From contig JAGOLK010000001.1 in assembly GCA_017994115.1 (NCBI GenBank), positions 1 to 64,000 of the forward strand: DNA of 64,000 bases, given 5' to 3'. Made by a program: the position numbers and the translations under genes. The stretch's first letter is position 1, and each line of letters starts with the position of its first letter. Below the pieces are notes generated by a model that made no database searches, was not told the DNA's origin, and worked only from the letters and a program-made list of their open reading frames with translations. Shown piece after piece: positions 443 through 41,779 of the stretch. Source of the stretch: Clostridia bacterium (GTDB lineage: Bacteria; Bacillota; Clostridia; Lutisporales; Lutisporaceae).

Positions 443-470
443 ATTAGTAATTAAATAATGCTGAACCAGA

Positions 471-650
471 TGAAAATGGCGAGAGATACCTTGTAAGGTA
501 GCCGAAGAAGCAATGTGAAGAGCAGCCCCTCTTCATAGACACTTTCAGGCAAAAGGATCGCCACGGGATGGTACTCTGAAGAGACCGTTTATCGGCGCCG
601 TAGGAGAAATACATTAATATGTAGAAGCTCTCAGGCAAAAGAACAGAGGG
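471..650 (+). promoter_or_regulatory. Tandem glycine riboswitch (two aptamers)
   Basis: Two glycine aptamers lie in series. Each has the hallmark pieces: a GAGA-type 5' strand, a GCCGAAGAAGCAA or GCGCCGTAGGAG-like core, and the conserved TCAGGCAAAAG segment (546-555 and 631-641). The first outer helix is GGCGA 478-482 with TCGCC 558-562; the second is CTCTG 574-578 with CAGAG 644-648. A short linker joins them. The 3' strand of the second helix abuts the terminator that follows, so glycine binding is expected to favour read-through into gcvT, as in the known ON-switches of this family. Confidence 0.95.
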
Positions 651-35204: not shown

Positions 35205-36452
35205 TCATATGCTCAGTGCATAAAACATCGATAAGATTCCTATTCCGAAAAGCATCCATAACACAGGGATAATCTCTACAAGTATTCCTGCCAGCACAAG
35301 TGCCATCGGCAAAGCAATTTTGCATATACAAATCGATGTACTGATAACACGCCCTCTGTACTTCCCGGCCGCATCAGTCTGAAGCTTCTGAATCAACGGT
35401 ACATCTGCAAAAGATATGGCACCGCCCGTCGCAATCATAAGGATACTGTAGTATATTACGCAGGATTCCTTCGAAAATTCCGCAAAGGTTAGCAGCGGAA
35501 TTCCCATTGCAATAATAACAATACCGAAGATAAATACAGACATATTTATTATTCTGCCGTAGGACAACTTCTTGCATGCCTTTCCTGCGGCAATTGCACC
35601 CATTATCGTTCCAACCGGCAGGAAGCCCTGGATAAAGCCATAAGCTGAAGGATCCAGCTCCAAAACATTATTTACCGCATATGGCAGGGGCACCATAATT
35701 GAGAATCCCAGTACAATATTCAATACTATAAAAATATTAAGAACTTCTTTCAGCTCTTTTTGCCTATATGTGTATAGAAATCCTTCTTTGAAATCAGGGA
35801 GAATACTTTTCAATGTAAAGTTTCCGGTTTCAAAACATCTTTCATTTTCCTCCCTGTTATTGAAACCATAGTCTATAAACAGTTCTGATATTCCGGAACA
35901 AAAGAACGAAAATCCGTTTATCAGCATGAGACACTTGATGTCGGCAAATGCAAATATCATCCCTCCTATTGCCGGACCAAGGATGGTTGATAAAGAATTT
36001 ATAATACGGCTGATTAAGTTGATTCTGATAAGATTATCATCTGTAACAAGATTTGGCTTGGCTGATTCCATGCTTATACCGAATATAACCGAGATTGCAT
36101 TCATCAGAAATGTTGTTATATAGATTATTGGAAGGGTCAGGCCAAAGCGTCTGCTGATCAAAAACAGCATCACAAACAGAATTGCATTTGCAATATCCAT
36201 TGAGACTACCAGGAGCTTTTTATTGAACCTGTCTGCAAGGACTCCTGCGAAGGGGCCTATAAGCACCGTCGGTATCACTCCCTGGATCAGGATGATGGCG
36301 AAGGAAATTCCCGAACCTGTTAATTTTAGTACATAAAGGCTGATGGCAAATGAATATATGGCAGAACCTAAAAGTGATACCATCTCTCCCATGGAAAACA
36401 ATATTATATTTGCCCTTTCACCTTTTGCAAAAAAGACATCCAAGTTTGTCAT
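35205..36452 (-). CDS. MFS transporter under MerR-type promoter
   Basis: A 415-residue major facilitator protein with about 12 helices (GPFAGVLADRFNKKLLVVSMD is the helix 2-3 signature; NLVTDDNLIRINLISRIINSLSTILGPAIGG is typical of the macrolide/enterobactin exporter branch). CAGGAGGT precedes the ATG. Its promoter has a 19-bp spacer with a dyad, the mark of MerR control, and the MerR-methyltransferase fusion is encoded directly upstream. Substrate unknown; drug or metabolite export is inferred. Confidence 0.9.
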   Translation of the reverse strand: MTNLDVFFAKGERANIILFSMGEMVSLLGSAIYSFAISLYVLKLTGSGISFAIILIQGVIPTVLIGPFAGVLADRFNKKLLVVSMDIANAILFVMLFLISRRFGLTLPIIYITTFLMNAISVIFGISMESAKPNLVTDDNLIRINLISRIINSLSTILGPAIGGMIFAFADIKCLMLINGFSFFCSGISELFIDYGFNNREENERCFETGNFTLKSILPDFKEGFLYTYRQKELKEVLNIFIVLNIVLGFSIMVPLPYAVNNVLELDPSAYGFIQGFLPVGTIMGAIAAGKACKKLSYGRIINMSVFIFGIVIIAMGIPLLTFAEFSKESCVIYYSILMIATGGAISFADVPLIQKLQTDAAGKYRGRVISTSICICKIALPMALVLAGILVEIIPVLWMLFGIGILSMFYALSI

Positions 36453-36492: not shown

Positions 36493-36523
36493 AGTATAAA
36501 ATATGGAGGAGGCTCCGGTTCAA
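36493..36523 (-). promoter_or_regulatory. MerR-type promoter (19-bp spacer) of the MFS gene
   Basis: On the minus strand TTGAAC (36523-36518) and TATACT (36498-36493) are 19 bases apart, two more than optimal, and the spacer holds the dyad GGAG/CTCC (36505-36508, 36513-36516). MerR-family activators twist such long spacers to start transcription. The nearest MerR gene is 134 bases upstream. Confidence 0.8.
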
Positions 36524-36554
36524 TAGCCGGTTTTTTGACTTGACTTCAAAATAA

Positions 36555-36580
36555 AAGAAAAAGATGGAGTACACTCCACC
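36555..36580 (-). terminator. Terminator after the MerR-methyltransferase gene
   Basis: On the minus strand GGTGGAGT (36580-36573) pairs with ACTCCATC (36570-36563), one G-U pair, followed by TTTTTCTTTT. It separates the regulator gene from the MFS promoter. Confidence 0.75.
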
Positions 36581-36586
36581 TTTGAA

Positions 36587-37843
36587 TCATTGTTCAGGTT
36601 TTAAAAAATTCCTGATGCACAGGTATGAAAATATCACATCTCCAAGCTGCTGATATGATTCGTATTTATTGGCCTCTTTACAGTAATACTTCTCGGAATA
36701 TGCCTCGTGAAGCAGCTTGAAGTTCAGGGAGTCCAGTTTTCCCTTCACAAATTCAAGGGTATAGTTTTTTCTGTATTCCTCCTTCAGAATATTACGCCTG
36801 CCGAATTTATCGAACAGTACATATCCCCCGTACAGCTTTGAATTATTCTTAAGGTATTTTATCGTGCTATCCAGCAGAAAATCCTTGTGGTTAAAGTTGT
36901 AATTTGTTGAACCGGAATAATCGACAAGCACGTCTATGGTTTCCTTTATTATGGGCAGTCTCTTGAAATCGGTGCATATATATACTATATTCTTTTTGCT
37001 GCCTGAAGACTCTATTATATTTTTAATGAGGTTCAGCCCGTTCATATCATGATCAATGGCGATATAAAGGGTATCCTCTGCCAGCTTGTCGAAAACCGCT
37101 CTCAGGAAAAATCCAAAACCGACGCCCAGATCCAGTACTACCTTTCCGGCAAAGTCATTCTTCTTCGTATTATATTCATACCAATTCAGGCTTTTATAAA
37201 CCTTATCCAGAAATACGGAATCAGTGCTGTCGATATATTTAAACAGCAGCTCCGCATCCGTGTTTAAGCAGCTGCCAATATTGCCGCTCACGCCTTCAAG
37301 CTTCTTTTCGATAATAAGGATCCCCTCATTGATCTCATATCTTTCTCCACAACTGCAAACCAGGTACCCTTCCATTATCTGATTGTCTTCTATTCTGCCT
37401 TTATGCAGCATCAGCCTGCCTCCGCAGCCGGGACAGCATAACACATTCAGTGAACTCAGCTCTATGCCGCTTTTCACTGAAGAATATCCATCCTCAATGT
37501 TGAAGCCGGCAAGCTTGTCTTCCAGTATCTCAAGGTTTCTACGCAAATTTTCGATGGCCTTTCTGGTATCCTTAATCTTTCTTTCAAAAAAAGTGCTGTA
37601 GTACTTGCTGCTTACTTTGTTCTCAACCTTGACAAACTGCTTGTAATAGAAAAACATCTTTATTTCCTGCAGTGAAAAGCCTATTTCTTTCAATTGGAGA
37701 ATTTCGTGCAAATCTTCTTTGCAGCTGTCATCAAATTCATAGTGCCCGCCTTTTTTACAGGGAACAAGCAGCCCCAGCTCCATATAATACCGTAGGGTAT
37801 CTATGCTTACATTGCTTTCCCTGGCAAATTGTCCGATTTTCAT
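36587..37843 (-). CDS. MerR regulator fused to Trm112-like zinc ribbon and methyltransferase
   Basis: A 418-residue fusion. Residues 1-70 are a MerR winged HTH (IGQFARESNVSIDTLRYYMELGLL), 75-115 the dimer coiled coil. A zinc ribbon like Trm112 follows (CPGC 137-140, CSCGERYEINEGILII from 163). Residues about 225-400 are a class I methyltransferase with motif I DLGVGFGFF (238-246) and acidic AIDHD (262-266). The zinc ribbon plus methyltransferase order recalls rRNA or small-molecule methylases. The fused enzyme could sense or modify a drug while the MerR part drives the MFS gene. Function is inferred; the fusion itself is read directly from one open frame. Confidence 0.88.
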   Translation of the reverse strand: MKIGQFARESNVSIDTLRYYMELGLLVPCKKGGHYEFDDSCKEDLHEILQLKEIGFSLQEIKMFFYYKQFVKVENKVSSKYYSTFFERKIKDTRKAIENLRRNLEILEDKLAGFNIEDGYSSVKSGIELSSLNVLCCPGCGGRLMLHKGRIEDNQIMEGYLVCSCGERYEINEGILIIEKKLEGVSGNIGSCLNTDAELLFKYIDSTDSVFLDKVYKSLNWYEYNTKKNDFAGKVVLDLGVGFGFFLRAVFDKLAEDTLYIAIDHDMNGLNLIKNIIESSGSKKNIVYICTDFKRLPIIKETIDVLVDYSGSTNYNFNHKDFLLDSTIKYLKNNSKLYGGYVLFDKFGRRNILKEEYRKNYTLEFVKGKLDSLNFKLLHEAYSEKYYCKEANKYESYQQLGDVIFSYLCIRNFLKPEQ

Positions 37844-37916: not shown

Positions 37917-39014
37917 TTACTCAACAACTACCTTTTTCACACAGTCGCTGGAGCACAAAAAGACCATTGCCGCATAAAAGGTATCAAATTCCAATACATC
38001 ACCCACTTTGATTTCCCCTGCATAATCCTCAATGTCCAGTATCAGATGGTCACTGCTGCTCCCTATTATCTCAATTCCTTCATGCCTTGGCCTAAGCTTT
38101 GAAAAGTCGCCGACATCCTTGTTCCCTACCGCCAGTACTGCTCTTTTCCGCATTCCCCTGTCGGTATATACCGGCCTGTTGCCAAAAGCGTCCACAAATA
38201 TTTCCCCTATCGGATAGCTTGGCTTCGTTTTGACTTCCACCACCTGTGCCTTCAGTACCATTGGGTCCCGGTAAATCCCCGGCATTTCTATACCCCACAC
38301 ATAGGGAAAATCCTTTGCCGTAATGATTGCCTCACCTATTCTCAAGTGGTTGATTCGTTCAGGCATTTTACCATCAACTAATAATGATAATGAAGTGCTG
38401 GCTCCGCCTGATATTATCTCAAGGCTTCTTCCGATTTCTTTTTCAATTGCCCCTGCCAGCCGGCACAGCTCTCCCAGGTTTTTTTCAGAAGGCTTGATGG
38501 AACCATAGCAGCCTAAATTAGTACCGATTCCCAACAGCTTGATATTCTCCAGCATTTCAACTTCCTTCGCGGCTTCAATTGCCTCTTCCTTGTTAAAAAA
38601 GCCTTCTCTCAGGTCTCCCAGGTCAACCATCAATATGACTCCGTGAACTTTTCCCTGCCGGCCTGCTTCTTTATTGATAAGCCTGATTGTTTCCATCTCG
38701 GAGTTCAGGCTTGAATCTGCATAGCTTACAAGCTCAGGTATCTCAGACGGCATAGGTATTCGGATGAGCATAAGCCCAGCTTTGATGCCGGCCCTCCGGA
38801 GCTTAATAATCTCCTTCATCCTCGAATCCCCTAACGTCTTGAAGCCTGCCTCTATGAATAATTCCGCCACCTCCGGTATTGCGCTGAAGCCTTTTACAAC
38901 GCCTGCCGGCTCGATCCCGTTGGCCTTGCACATCTCATATATCTTACGGGCATTGCTCTTAATTTTTGAGGCTGAAATCTCATATACGGGGTACTGCCCC
39001 TCATAATCAATCAC
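37917..39014 (-). CDS. Alanine racemase-fold PLP enzyme (ornithine/amino-acid racemase-like)
   Basis: A 365-residue pyridoxal-phosphate enzyme of the alanine racemase N-terminal family, closest in layout to clostridial ornithine racemase (Orr). K41 in AGVVKGFSA is the cofactor lysine; GIGTNLGCYGSIKPSEKNL, SGGASTSL and LRIGEAII match that branch. GTG 39014 is chosen for AAGGAGGG six bases before; a longer frame to 39071 runs into the MATE gene. It lies 22 bases after the MATE gene and is probably co-transcribed. The amino acid substrate cannot be read. Confidence 0.85.
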   Translation of the reverse strand: MIDYEGQYPVYEISASKIKSNARKIYEMCKANGIEPAGVVKGFSAIPEVAELFIEAGFKTLGDSRMKEIIKLRRAGIKAGLMLIRIPMPSEIPELVSYADSSLNSEMETIRLINKEAGRQGKVHGVILMVDLGDLREGFFNKEEAIEAAKEVEMLENIKLLGIGTNLGCYGSIKPSEKNLGELCRLAGAIEKEIGRSLEIISGGASTSLSLLVDGKMPERINHLRIGEAIITAKDFPYVWGIEMPGIYRDPMVLKAQVVEVKTKPSYPIGEIFVDAFGNRPVYTDRGMRKRAVLAVGNKDVGDFSKLRPRHEGIEIIGSSSDHLILDIEDYAGEIKVGDVLEFDTFYAAMVFLCSSDCVKKVVVE

Positions 39015-39036
39015 TATTATCCCTCCTTCATATTTA

Positions 39037-40398
39037 TCAGGCCGCATCAGGAACATCTTGTGCAGTATCAAGTGCCTTCATCCTCAAATATTCCTTTCTA
39101 TATATTAATCCCTCATATATAATCATCATTACCCACCCTATGCCAACTGCATAACATATGCCCGAGATACCGAAATAAGGGGCAAATATTAAGGCCAGAA
39201 CAACTCTTGCAGATACCTGCATAACTGTCGCGATAAATGTTATATGAAGCTTTCCGATCCCTCTGAAGATGCCCTGAAAAATATTGCAGAAGCCTGTAAG
39301 CACATATAGTAAAGACATTAATTTTAAATACTCCACCCCTATCAGTATAACCTCGCTTTCAGAACCGGAAATAAACAGGTGCATTATCTTCTCAGCCCCG
39401 AAAAATACAATTGCGGCAATAGCAAGATTATATACTGTAATAATAATATTGCCGATATTATAGCCCTCAATTATTCTCCTCCACTTCCTTGCTCCAAGGT
39501 TCTGAGCAGTATAAGTGGAGACTGACACGGTAAAACTGTCACCCGGGGAGAGCACAAAGGCATCGATTCTTACTGCAGCATTATAAGCTGCTATGGTGTT
39601 TGTACCAAAAGGATTGACAATTCCCTGAACCAGCAGCCTCCCTATATACAGGCTGATTTGCTGCAATGATGTAATGCTGCTGTATTCTATGGTTTTTCTC
39701 AGCAAGGGCTTGTCCAGAATCAGTTCATGAGGTTTCAGTCTAATCAACGGAATTTTCATGTATATATATGCTATGCACAATATCGAGGATACGGCCTGTG
39801 CAATTATCGTTGCAGCTGCCGAACCGGCCACTCCAAGCTCAAGCACCGCAACGAAGAAGTAGCATAAAATCCCGTTAAGGACACAGGATATGCTTAAAAA
39901 AACAAATGGAGTCTTTGAGTCTCCTATGGATTTCAATGCAAAAGAGTGAAAATTGTACAGGAAAGAAAATATAAGTCCCCCGAATATTATCTTCAGGAAT
40001 ATCTCCGCATCATTCATAATCTCTTCCGGAGTGCCGATAGCAATGAGAATATACCTTGCTGTGAATATGCATATTATGGACAAAGCGGCGGTAAGTATGG
40101 TACCTGCAATTAAAGCAGTAGAAATTTCCTTCTTCAAGGTTTCATATTTTGCTGCTCCGAATATCTGGGACATATATATTGAAGCCCCTATGCATATACC
40201 AAATATAAAGAAAATTGCAATAGACATGATCGGATTGGCAACGCCCACTGCTGCCAATGCATTCTTCCCCACAAACCGTCCCAGTATCACGGCATCGGTT
40301 ATATTGTACAGCTGCTGCAATATGTTCTCCAGTATCATTGGTATGGCAAATGTAATCAGTACTCTTGACGAGCTGCCTTGAGTCATATCACCGTTCAT
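39037..40398 (-). CDS. MATE-family efflux transporter
   Basis: A 453-residue MATE exporter with 12 helices in two similar halves (LQQLYNITDAVILGRFVGKNALAAVGVANPIM is the first-half signature). These pumps expel cationic drugs or metabolites in exchange for sodium or protons. ATG 40398 is chosen for GGGGG six bases upstream. The leader carries a 32-bp perfect palindrome over the promoter. A racemase-like gene follows in the same operon, so an amino-acid-derived cargo is conceivable. Confidence 0.92.
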   Translation of the reverse strand: MNGDMTQGSSSRVLITFAIPMILENILQQLYNITDAVILGRFVGKNALAAVGVANPIMSIAIFFIFGICIGASIYMSQIFGAAKYETLKKEISTALIAGTILTAALSIICIFTARYILIAIGTPEEIMNDAEIFLKIIFGGLIFSFLYNFHSFALKSIGDSKTPFVFLSISCVLNGILCYFFVAVLELGVAGSAAATIIAQAVSSILCIAYIYMKIPLIRLKPHELILDKPLLRKTIEYSSITSLQQISLYIGRLLVQGIVNPFGTNTIAAYNAAVRIDAFVLSPGDSFTVSVSTYTAQNLGARKWRRIIEGYNIGNIIITVYNLAIAAIVFFGAEKIMHLFISGSESEVILIGVEYLKLMSLLYVLTGFCNIFQGIFRGIGKLHITFIATVMQVSARVVLALIFAPYFGISGICYAVGIGWVMMIIYEGLIYRKEYLRMKALDTAQDVPDAA

Positions 40399-40409
40399 AA
40401 AAGTCCCCC

Positions 40410-40463
40410 ATTGTATAGGAAAATATATTTTCCTATACAATTAAAATGCGTCTTATAATCCAA
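40410..40463 (-). promoter_or_regulatory. MATE promoter with 32-bp perfect palindromic operator
   Basis: The palindrome spans 40410-40441, each arm reading ATTGTATAGGAAAATA. On the minus strand TTGGAT (40463-40458) and TTGTAT (40440-40435), 17 bases apart, could be the promoter, with the -10 box in the palindrome's edge and the transcript start inside it. No T run follows, so it is an operator rather than a terminator. No regulator gene with obvious matching role is next to it. Confidence 0.7.
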
Positions 40464-40479
40464 CGAAATTATTATATCA

Positions 40480-41709
40480 TTAATTAAGTTCCTTTGCCCT
40501 GCTTGTTCTAAAATTGCTGTGAGTTTCAAGCAGATACATTCCCGCTGCACCTGCAAGCCCCAGGCAGAAAGCCAAAGGCCACACAGCTTCCACGCCAAAA
40601 AAGTCCATATACCTGCCCATTACTGATGTACCCAGGGCAGACCCGACAGCAAAGCTTAAGGAGGATATCGCATTGAACCTTGCCCTGAAATTCTGCGGAG
40701 TATTGTTTGCTATATATACTCCGAAGTTTGTCACCGTCATTATCTCACCTATTGTCCATATAATGGCGGAAAGTATGAACAACGGCATTGAGCTGATAAA
40801 GGTTATCATCCCGAAGCCTATGGCATACAGCAGCCCTGCTACGGAGATAGTGCTTAAAGGCTTCCATTTCCTTGTAGCGTGGGTTATGAACATTGTCAGT
40901 ATAATAACCGTCAAAGCATTGCAGCTCATAACAACTCCAAAGTTGCTTGCCCCGCTGCTGCCAAAAATATTATCCAGCATCATAGGCAGTGAAAAAGAGT
41001 GCTGTGTATACACAACACTAAAAACTATATTAATTGTAAGAAAAACCAGGATTTTGGGCCTTCTTATCAAAATGGAAAAAACATTGCCTTCTTCACTTTT
41101 TTCTTCATCGTTTAAGCATTTATTGTCAGAGTAATCAGGCAAGGTCTCCTTGATATTTGTCAAAACCAGAATAACGGCTATCAATGAAGTTACCGCATCA
41201 CCGATGAATACAAGGGGAATATAACGGTTGAACAGAAAGCCTGCGACAAGGGGCCCCAGGGATACGCCAAGATTTATCCCCAGATAGGATAATGAAAATC
41301 CCATTTTTCTCTTTTCAGCAGGCAAAACATCAGTGATAATAGCCGATATGATCGGGCGGACCGCCCCGTTAAAAAAAGAAGCCATACAAATAAGTACTAT
41401 TATGATTTGCGGATTTTCCAGGAAGGCACAGGAGAACAAACATACCGCCGCACTTAATTGGAAGAATGCATAAGACTTCTTGCGTCCTAAATGATCCGCA
41501 ATCTTCCCCCCTGCAAAAGATCCCGGAATTGTTGACAGGGAAGTCAGCATAACCGCAATTCCTGCGTCTTGATAGCTCAGCCCAAGCTTTTTAACCAGAA
41601 ACAGACTTAGAAACGGCAGTACAAAATCACCAAAACGGTTGATTATCTGAGCAAAAAATATTATGTAAACACTTTTGGGCAGTCCTCTATAGGAATCGAA
41701 ATAACTCAC
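40480..41709 (-). CDS. MFS transporter (multidrug-resistance type)
   Basis: A 409-residue major facilitator with 12 helices; AGGKIADHLGRKKSYAFFQLSAAVCLF is the helix 2-3 signature and PIISAIITDVLPAEKRKMGFSLSYLGINLGVSLGPLVAG in outline is typical of the MdtH/YfcJ-like branch. GTG 41709 is chosen for the GGGGG site nine bases upstream; 11 more codons to 41742 have none. Stands alone with its own promoter and dyad. Substrate unknown. Confidence 0.9.
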   Translation of the reverse strand: MSYFDSYRGLPKSVYIIFFAQIINRFGDFVLPFLSLFLVKKLGLSYQDAGIAVMLTSLSTIPGSFAGGKIADHLGRKKSYAFFQLSAAVCLFSCAFLENPQIIIVLICMASFFNGAVRPIISAIITDVLPAEKRKMGFSLSYLGINLGVSLGPLVAGFLFNRYIPLVFIGDAVTSLIAVILVLTNIKETLPDYSDNKCLNDEEKSEEGNVFSILIRRPKILVFLTINIVFSVVYTQHSFSLPMMLDNIFGSSGASNFGVVMSCNALTVIILTMFITHATRKWKPLSTISVAGLLYAIGFGMITFISSMPLFILSAIIWTIGEIMTVTNFGVYIANNTPQNFRARFNAISSLSFAVGSALGTSVMGRYMDFFGVEAVWPLAFCLGLAGAAGMYLLETHSNFRTSRAKELN

Positions 41710-41731
41710 TTTATTTAACCCCCTACTCAAA

Positions 41732-41779
41732 ATTTTAACCACTCAAAAAATAAAATCCAATATGGCAATATTACCATAT
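41732..41779 (-). promoter_or_regulatory. Promoter and dyad upstream of MFS gene
   Basis: On the minus strand TTGGAT (41760-41755) and TAAAAT (41737-41732) are 17 bases apart. A dyad, ATATGG (41760-41765) with CCATAT (41774-41779), touches the upstream edge of the -35 box and could bind a repressor or activator. Confidence 0.55.

Follow-up and report, generated by a model that had tools for sequence, protein, structure and literature searches.

Introduction

A 19-bp spacer is a hallmark of MerR-controlled promoters. The regulators BmrR, Mta, TipAL and EcmrR have a MerR HTH, a long dimer helix, a dyad within a 19-bp spacer and an adjoining efflux gene, and they have all of these in common with the protein described here, which is encoded in the window, the 64,000-nucleotide stretch of DNA from a Clostridia bacterium that we analysed. 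To our knowledge, the effector parts of these four regulators are GyrI-like, TipAS or short, none of them being a zinc ribbon joined to a methyltransferase (MT), and we know of no second upstream operator in the textbook MerR scheme.

The RlmA(I) and RlmA(II) 23S rRNA guanine N1-methyltransferases likewise have a zinc ribbon followed by a class I MT domain, but RlmA has no DNA-binding domain, and the spacing of its zinc ligands differs from that in the ribbon of the window protein. A similar ribbon is paired with an MT domain in the systems of the Trm112 activators (METTL5–TRMT112, Trm9–Trm112); the window protein differs from these in holding ribbon and MT in cis, on one chain that also contains a DNA-binding domain, and in missing the Trm112_arch cut-off. 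A MerR HTH with an annotated C-terminal MT domain is found in V. cholerae VCA0264 (MerR1); the part of the published account that deals with this protein gives the domain no function and describes no operator, and the likeness to the window protein is one of domain description only (PMC9662190). With this annotated domain on record, the original prediction that MerR effector parts are normally not enzymes was too strong (PMC9662190). VCA0264 was also the one instance in which a combination of MerR and MT was remarked upon in our literature search, which covered few subscription journals and found no paper on a MerR–ribbon–MT family or on paired operators. Judging from sequence comparison, we consider it likely that the window protein is a MerR-type activator that binds two operators, O1 and O2, uses its MT fold as a chemical sensor and switches on an exporter in response to a ligand.

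An intact MerR–zinc ribbon–methyltransferase frame

We found that the fusion gene is a single unbroken frame with no internal stop (Table 1). The intact ORF, the domain searches and the structural model confirmed that a MerR HTH, a coiled coil, a Trm112-like ribbon and a class I MT domain lie in this one frame, as the original prediction had it; the frame is open between the MerR and MT parts, where a stop codon or sequencing error had been named as the weak point, and the fusion recurs in 95 relatives. MerR_1 (PF13411) matched the window protein with 52.1 bits vs. a Pfam cut-off of 21.6. The ribbon fell short of both of its models (Trm112p, PF03966, residues 132–174, 3e-4, 21.1 bits vs. a Pfam cut-off of 22; Trm112_arch, NF038101, residues 131–175, 1e-9, 38.3 bits vs. 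an NCBIfam cut-off of 77); the family member L034 cleared the PF03966 cut-off at 28.6 bits, and, with a profile, the ribbon matched 6zxw_H (E 2e-6). The zinc cysteines of the ribbon (C137, C140, C163 and C165) are each at least 90% conserved in alignment A3, which comprises 68 proteins from the exporter-linked clade and its close relatives. Methyltransf_25 matched residues 236–321 (1e-5), slightly below the Pfam cut-off, and SAM motif I reads DLGVGFGFFLR (residues 238–248).

An AlphaFold model built from 68 homologues (mean pLDDT 91.7, pTM 0.80) predicts an HTH, a 41-residue helix, the ribbon and a Rossmann-type MT, and its best Foldseek match is RlmA(I) (1p91; zinc ribbon plus MT), at a modest TM-score. 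At sequence level, the protein shows what is expected of a MerR activator, and it probably acts in the manner of BmrR or Mta. PADLOC matches to mad1 and mad2 were generic HTH and MT matches.

Table 1. Positions in the window of the regulator gene, its domains, the two dyads and the neighbouring exporter gene.
Feature	Position	Strand	Evidence
MerR–zinc ribbon–methyltransferase regulator gene, 418 aa	36587..37843	−	Intact ORF, domain matches, high-confidence model
MerR winged HTH, residues 1-65	37649..37843	−	PF13411 7.3e-14; closest solved chains belong to MerR-family regulators
Long dimerisation-type helix, residues 75-115	37499..37621	−	DSSP on model
Trm112-like zinc ribbon, residues 132-175, CxxC...CxC	37319..37450	−	PF03966 and NF038101 below cut-off; 6zxw_H
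Class I MT domain, residues 229-402	36638..37159	−	Methyltransf_25/31 and BioC matches; invariant residues; Foldseek
O2, predicted upstream operator palindrome GGTGGAGTGTACTCCATC, then T-run (terminator-like)	36563..36580	−	Fixed distance to −35, matches O1, hairpin
MFS promoter TTGAAC (36518–36523)-N19-TATACT (36493–36498), with O1 dyad GGAG-N4-CTCC (36505-36516) in the spacer	36493..36523	−	19-bp geometry; unchanged in same-genus relative
MFS exporter gene, 415 aa, inferred target	35205..36452	−	PF07690 1e-19; TIGR00900 4e-61, below cut-off; ortholog in 63 loci

A 19-bp-spacer promoter ahead of an MFS gene

The coordinates, the 19-bp spacer and the GGAG/CTCC dyad of the promoter first proposed for the MFS gene all held, but its span was incomplete, in that a second dyad of the same element, TGGAGTGTACTCCA (36565–36578), had been left out. 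The midpoint of the O1 dyad falls between positions 7 and 8 of the spacer. When we searched 63 homologous gaps, whose kinship makes the counts less than independent, with the pattern TTG-N-TA...T, a promoter with a 19-bp spacer was present in 58/63 vs. 5.2 expected from shuffles, an excess that argues for selection on this geometry; spacer lengths of 14–18 and 20–23 bp were near background in the same gaps, with no enrichment. A covariation between recognition-helix residue 19 (mostly His; Tyr in the window) and a GGG or GGAG half-site was considered and rejected, as Tyr occurs together with GGG sites in L042 and L099.

An orthologous MFS gene lies directly downstream of the regulator gene on the same strand in 63 loci (~37–46% identity; 49% in one partial ORF), and in the window the gap between the two genes is 134 bp. 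The product reached the general MFS_1 cut-off and scored 207.5 vs. a cut-off of 319.6 with TIGR00900, a DHA3-type MFS group. The conserved pairing and the promoter geometry support the proposal that the regulator acts on this neighbour, making it the likely target via a MerR-type 19-bp promoter, and the MFS gene is very probably controlled by the fusion protein through two evenly spaced copies of the site. A few members with the SAM motif (L021 and L076) have no recognised MFS gene alongside.

Two other SAM-motif members without an MFS gene (L073 and L077) are followed, behind a 19-bp-spacer promoter, by a gene that looks like the tRNA methyltransferase TrmB. The region upstream of the regulator in the window (37917–41742) contains, likewise on the minus strand, a gene resembling ornithine racemase (NF040742, 405 bits vs. 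a cut-off of 480), a MATE exporter gene and a second MFS gene, so that the regulator ends a run of transporter genes.

The methyltransferase domain is best read as a ligand sensor

G240, G242, G244, D264, D292 and D308 are invariant in 68/68 proteins of A3, which thereby all have the three glycines of the SAM motif, an acidic residue behind strand 2 and, behind strand 4, Asp308, and DxxG[ST]SNYxF is invariant or nearly so across the 68 exporter-clade proteins. The alignment, the model and Foldseek place a Rossmann-type fold, a motif I of the form (D/E)xGxGxG and the acidic residue after strand 2 in the window protein. Since the SAM motif is present in all 68, a SAM-dependent step in the exporter branch is plausible. 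More distant relatives keep the HTH, the ribbon cysteines and the MT fold, and have ETNxxxxF or similar as motif I; the model of one of them, L097, which has no SAM motif (pLDDT 84.4), still matches RlmA(I), its top Foldseek match as for the window protein, and other class I MTs. These relatives adjoin amine, amino-acid and nucleobase genes, and their annotated neighbours include a pipecolate-oxidase-like FAD enzyme, a histidinol dehydrogenase, an amidohydrolase, sodium:solute symporters, a FAD flavocytochrome-like protein and an 8-oxoguanine-deaminase-like enzyme. The state of the SAM motif changes once on the tree, with the canonical motifs within the exporter-containing clade, and this tree is quick, unrooted and has several long branches, so that gain of the motif reads the same as loss.

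Because sister groups hold the ribbon–MT scaffold without the SAM motif beside likely targets, sensing is the reading that best fits what the module does throughout, and catalysis looks optional. The ribbon metal is not always needed either, given that L083 (5001–6227, Acetoanaerobium pronyense) has lost all four ribbon cysteines and keeps the SAM motif, O1 and O2. Our best reading of these comparisons is that the ribbon–MT module is a ligand sensor, SAM-dependent in the exporter branch, and an enzyme fold seems here to have become a chemical sensor.

The original prediction took the protein for a sensor that methylates a drug, RNA or signal and switches on export at the same time. It is possible, if doubtful, that the protein is such a regulator and working enzyme at once, its MT domain methylating a toxic compound or, in the manner of RlmA, 23S rRNA, and the same protein turning on the pump, which would couple chemistry to export. 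The (near) invariance of the SAM glycines, the acidic residue and DxxG[ST]SNYxF over 68 divergent exporter-clade proteins speaks for this, as do the top structural match, RlmA(I) being an rRNA enzyme with a zinc ribbon and an MT domain, and the resemblance, at a low score, of the MFS partner to Mef-type macrolide exporters. However, RlmA membership of the window protein was rejected on score (NF008300, 14.2 bits vs. a cut-off of 303), its zinc spacing is Trm112-like and not RlmA-like, the sister groups do without the SAM motif and keep the fold and likely targets, and a transcription factor is normally too scarce for detoxification.

We regard it as unlikely that the domain binds SAM or SAH as the ligand itself and reports methylation status, with the exporter clearing an unrelated metabolite. 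The strict conservation of the SAM motif is confined to one clade by one change on the tree, as this would have it; the presence of one MFS pump per regulator suggests, however, a specific exported ligand, and DxSG[ST]SNY after strand 4 would presumably face the substrate side, not SAM, as in class I MTs.

A second palindrome phased with the promoter

Upstream of the −35, the loci carry a palindrome of the type GGtaGGGTnnACCCtaCC, which we call O2. Its palindrome score was at least 5.5 in 54/60 loci vs. 19.5% of shuffles, with a scoring that favours GC palindromes, and its centre lay 47.5–49.5 or 58.5–59.5 bp before the −35 in 52/54 loci vs. 10.7% of null hits, counts that overstate independence because the loci are related (the spacing class changed only about five times on the tree). 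The two spacing classes are one helical turn apart, the longer marking one clade, and O2 lies ~61 bp (six helical turns) upstream of O1, on the same face of the DNA. O1 resembled the O2 of its own locus in one register only (9.98/16 identities vs. 2.3–5.6 at other registers), and O1 and O2 of one locus agreed better than O1 and O2 swapped between loci (10.43 vs. 9.61 ± 0.16; 0/2000 permutations reached the own value); the clearest case of joint change is the window, where both O1 and O2 have GGAG-N4-CTCC. The gap of the same-genus relative differs in seven places, none of them within O1 or O2. As a control, 18 strong 19-bp promoters flanking plain MerR genes yielded 3 with an upstream palindrome scoring at least 7, and these were scattered (at 21, 32 and 44.5).

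O2 starts at the regulator stop codon in many loci, and in the window it forms a hairpin of 10 pairs with a T-run (36583–36560; RNA fold z −3.2). We therefore weighed whether O2 acts solely as an intrinsic terminator for the regulator gene and resembles O1 through convergence on a GC palindrome. The hairpin, its frequent place right at the stop codon and the selection for palindromes that terminators behind a regulator gene would also exert all agree with this, which we nonetheless hold to be quite improbable: the distance from O2 to the −35 is fixed, whereas that to the stop codon ranges from about −44 to +174 (~50 bp in L003, L102 and L103; 98 and 174 bp past the stop codon in L025 and L056, respectively), and O2 matches the O1 of its own locus better than those of other loci. 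In L042 the gene order is reversed, the MFS gene preceding the fusion, and O2 still stands ahead of the pump gene. The position of O2 tracks the promoter rather than the stop codon. Where the regulator and an unrelated target gene are divergent, O2 recurs between the regulator and the promoter on the opposite side, at 39.0–39.5 (L090, L092), 27.5 (L096) and 48.0 bp (L097), spacings that in these four clear cases correspond roughly to whole-turn steps; three further divergent loci (L087, L093 and L094) had no strong palindrome. In our reading, O2 is a predicted operator that, where the genes lie in tandem, serves as a terminator as well.

Distribution of the fusion

We aligned 95 distinct full-length fusion proteins, nearly all from Bacillota. 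The fusion was present in 7/391 genomes of a class sample (E≤1e-20), about a dozen full-length fusions were found in the 398 genomes of a phylum sample, and a scan of 84,980 species (one genome per species) gave 80 loci in Clostridium, Tissierella, Neobacillus, Bacillus, Alkaliphilus, Paenibacillus, Desulfosporosinus, Fusibacter and other genera. The source genome has one full-length copy, and a same-genus genome has a partial copy of the protein (93%). Two relatives of full length came from the plasmid collection, and one of these lies on a 2.6-Mb Acetoanaerobium record that is labelled as a plasmid; the viral contigs searched gave no relatives. The fusion is real and conserved, and no sequencing artefact; the assembly from which the window comes is a draft of 127 contigs, 81% complete, but the notion that chance or misassembly produced a meaningless frame and promoter is exceedingly improbable and is refuted by the homologues, since isolate genomes of many genera have the same fusion and promoter geometry (58/63 vs. 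5.2).

Chengkuizengella axinellae carries two copies of the fusion gene (L060 and L064) near each other on one contig, and an MFS gene adjoins only one of them.

Proposed mechanism and significance

In the mechanism that we propose, a dimer of the 418-aa protein would sit on O1, the dyad that lies within the over-long spacer (19 bp) of the MFS promoter, and a dimer of the same type on O2, the second copy of the site; the matching, phase-locked sites are observed, and binding to them is predicted. In the absence of ligand, the over-long spacer would keep the MFS promoter inactive. The ribbon–MT module would take up the ligand, with SAM as cofactor or co-substrate, and the ligand-bound dimer would then distort O1 as MerR and BmrR do, turning the exporter on. 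O2 would provide a cooperative contact, either between dimers or with RNA polymerase alpha, and its hairpin would terminate the regulator's own transcript. The MT fold would serve as the chemical sensor throughout, the sister groups keeping the fold without the SAM motif beside catabolic and uptake genes. The MT domain of the exporter branch may also methylate the compound. More speculatively, one protein could be enzyme and sensor together, methylating, or complexing in a SAM-dependent way, the compound that is exported, its catalytic state driving untwisting via the two phase-locked operators and its relatives having dropped catalysis and kept the fold as a metabolite sensor; we offer this tentatively, as a minority possibility.

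With the zinc ribbon–MT pair, the MerR family would gain a widespread effector module, together with a set of natural variants in which an enzyme fold persists as a sensor, in some with the cofactor motif and in others without it. Two operators at whole-turn spacing would extend the one-dyad MerR model in a specific, testable way. In the exporter branch, the regulator could be responding to an antibiotic or to a toxic metabolite, which would make the system a ready-made biosensor candidate.

Elsewhere in the window, a tandem glycine riboswitch of two RF00504 aptamers (470–648, plus strand) stands directly before glycine-cleavage genes that start at 697; judged from the proteins, the set is of the gcvT-gcvH-gcvPA-gcvPB type, an ordinary arrangement.
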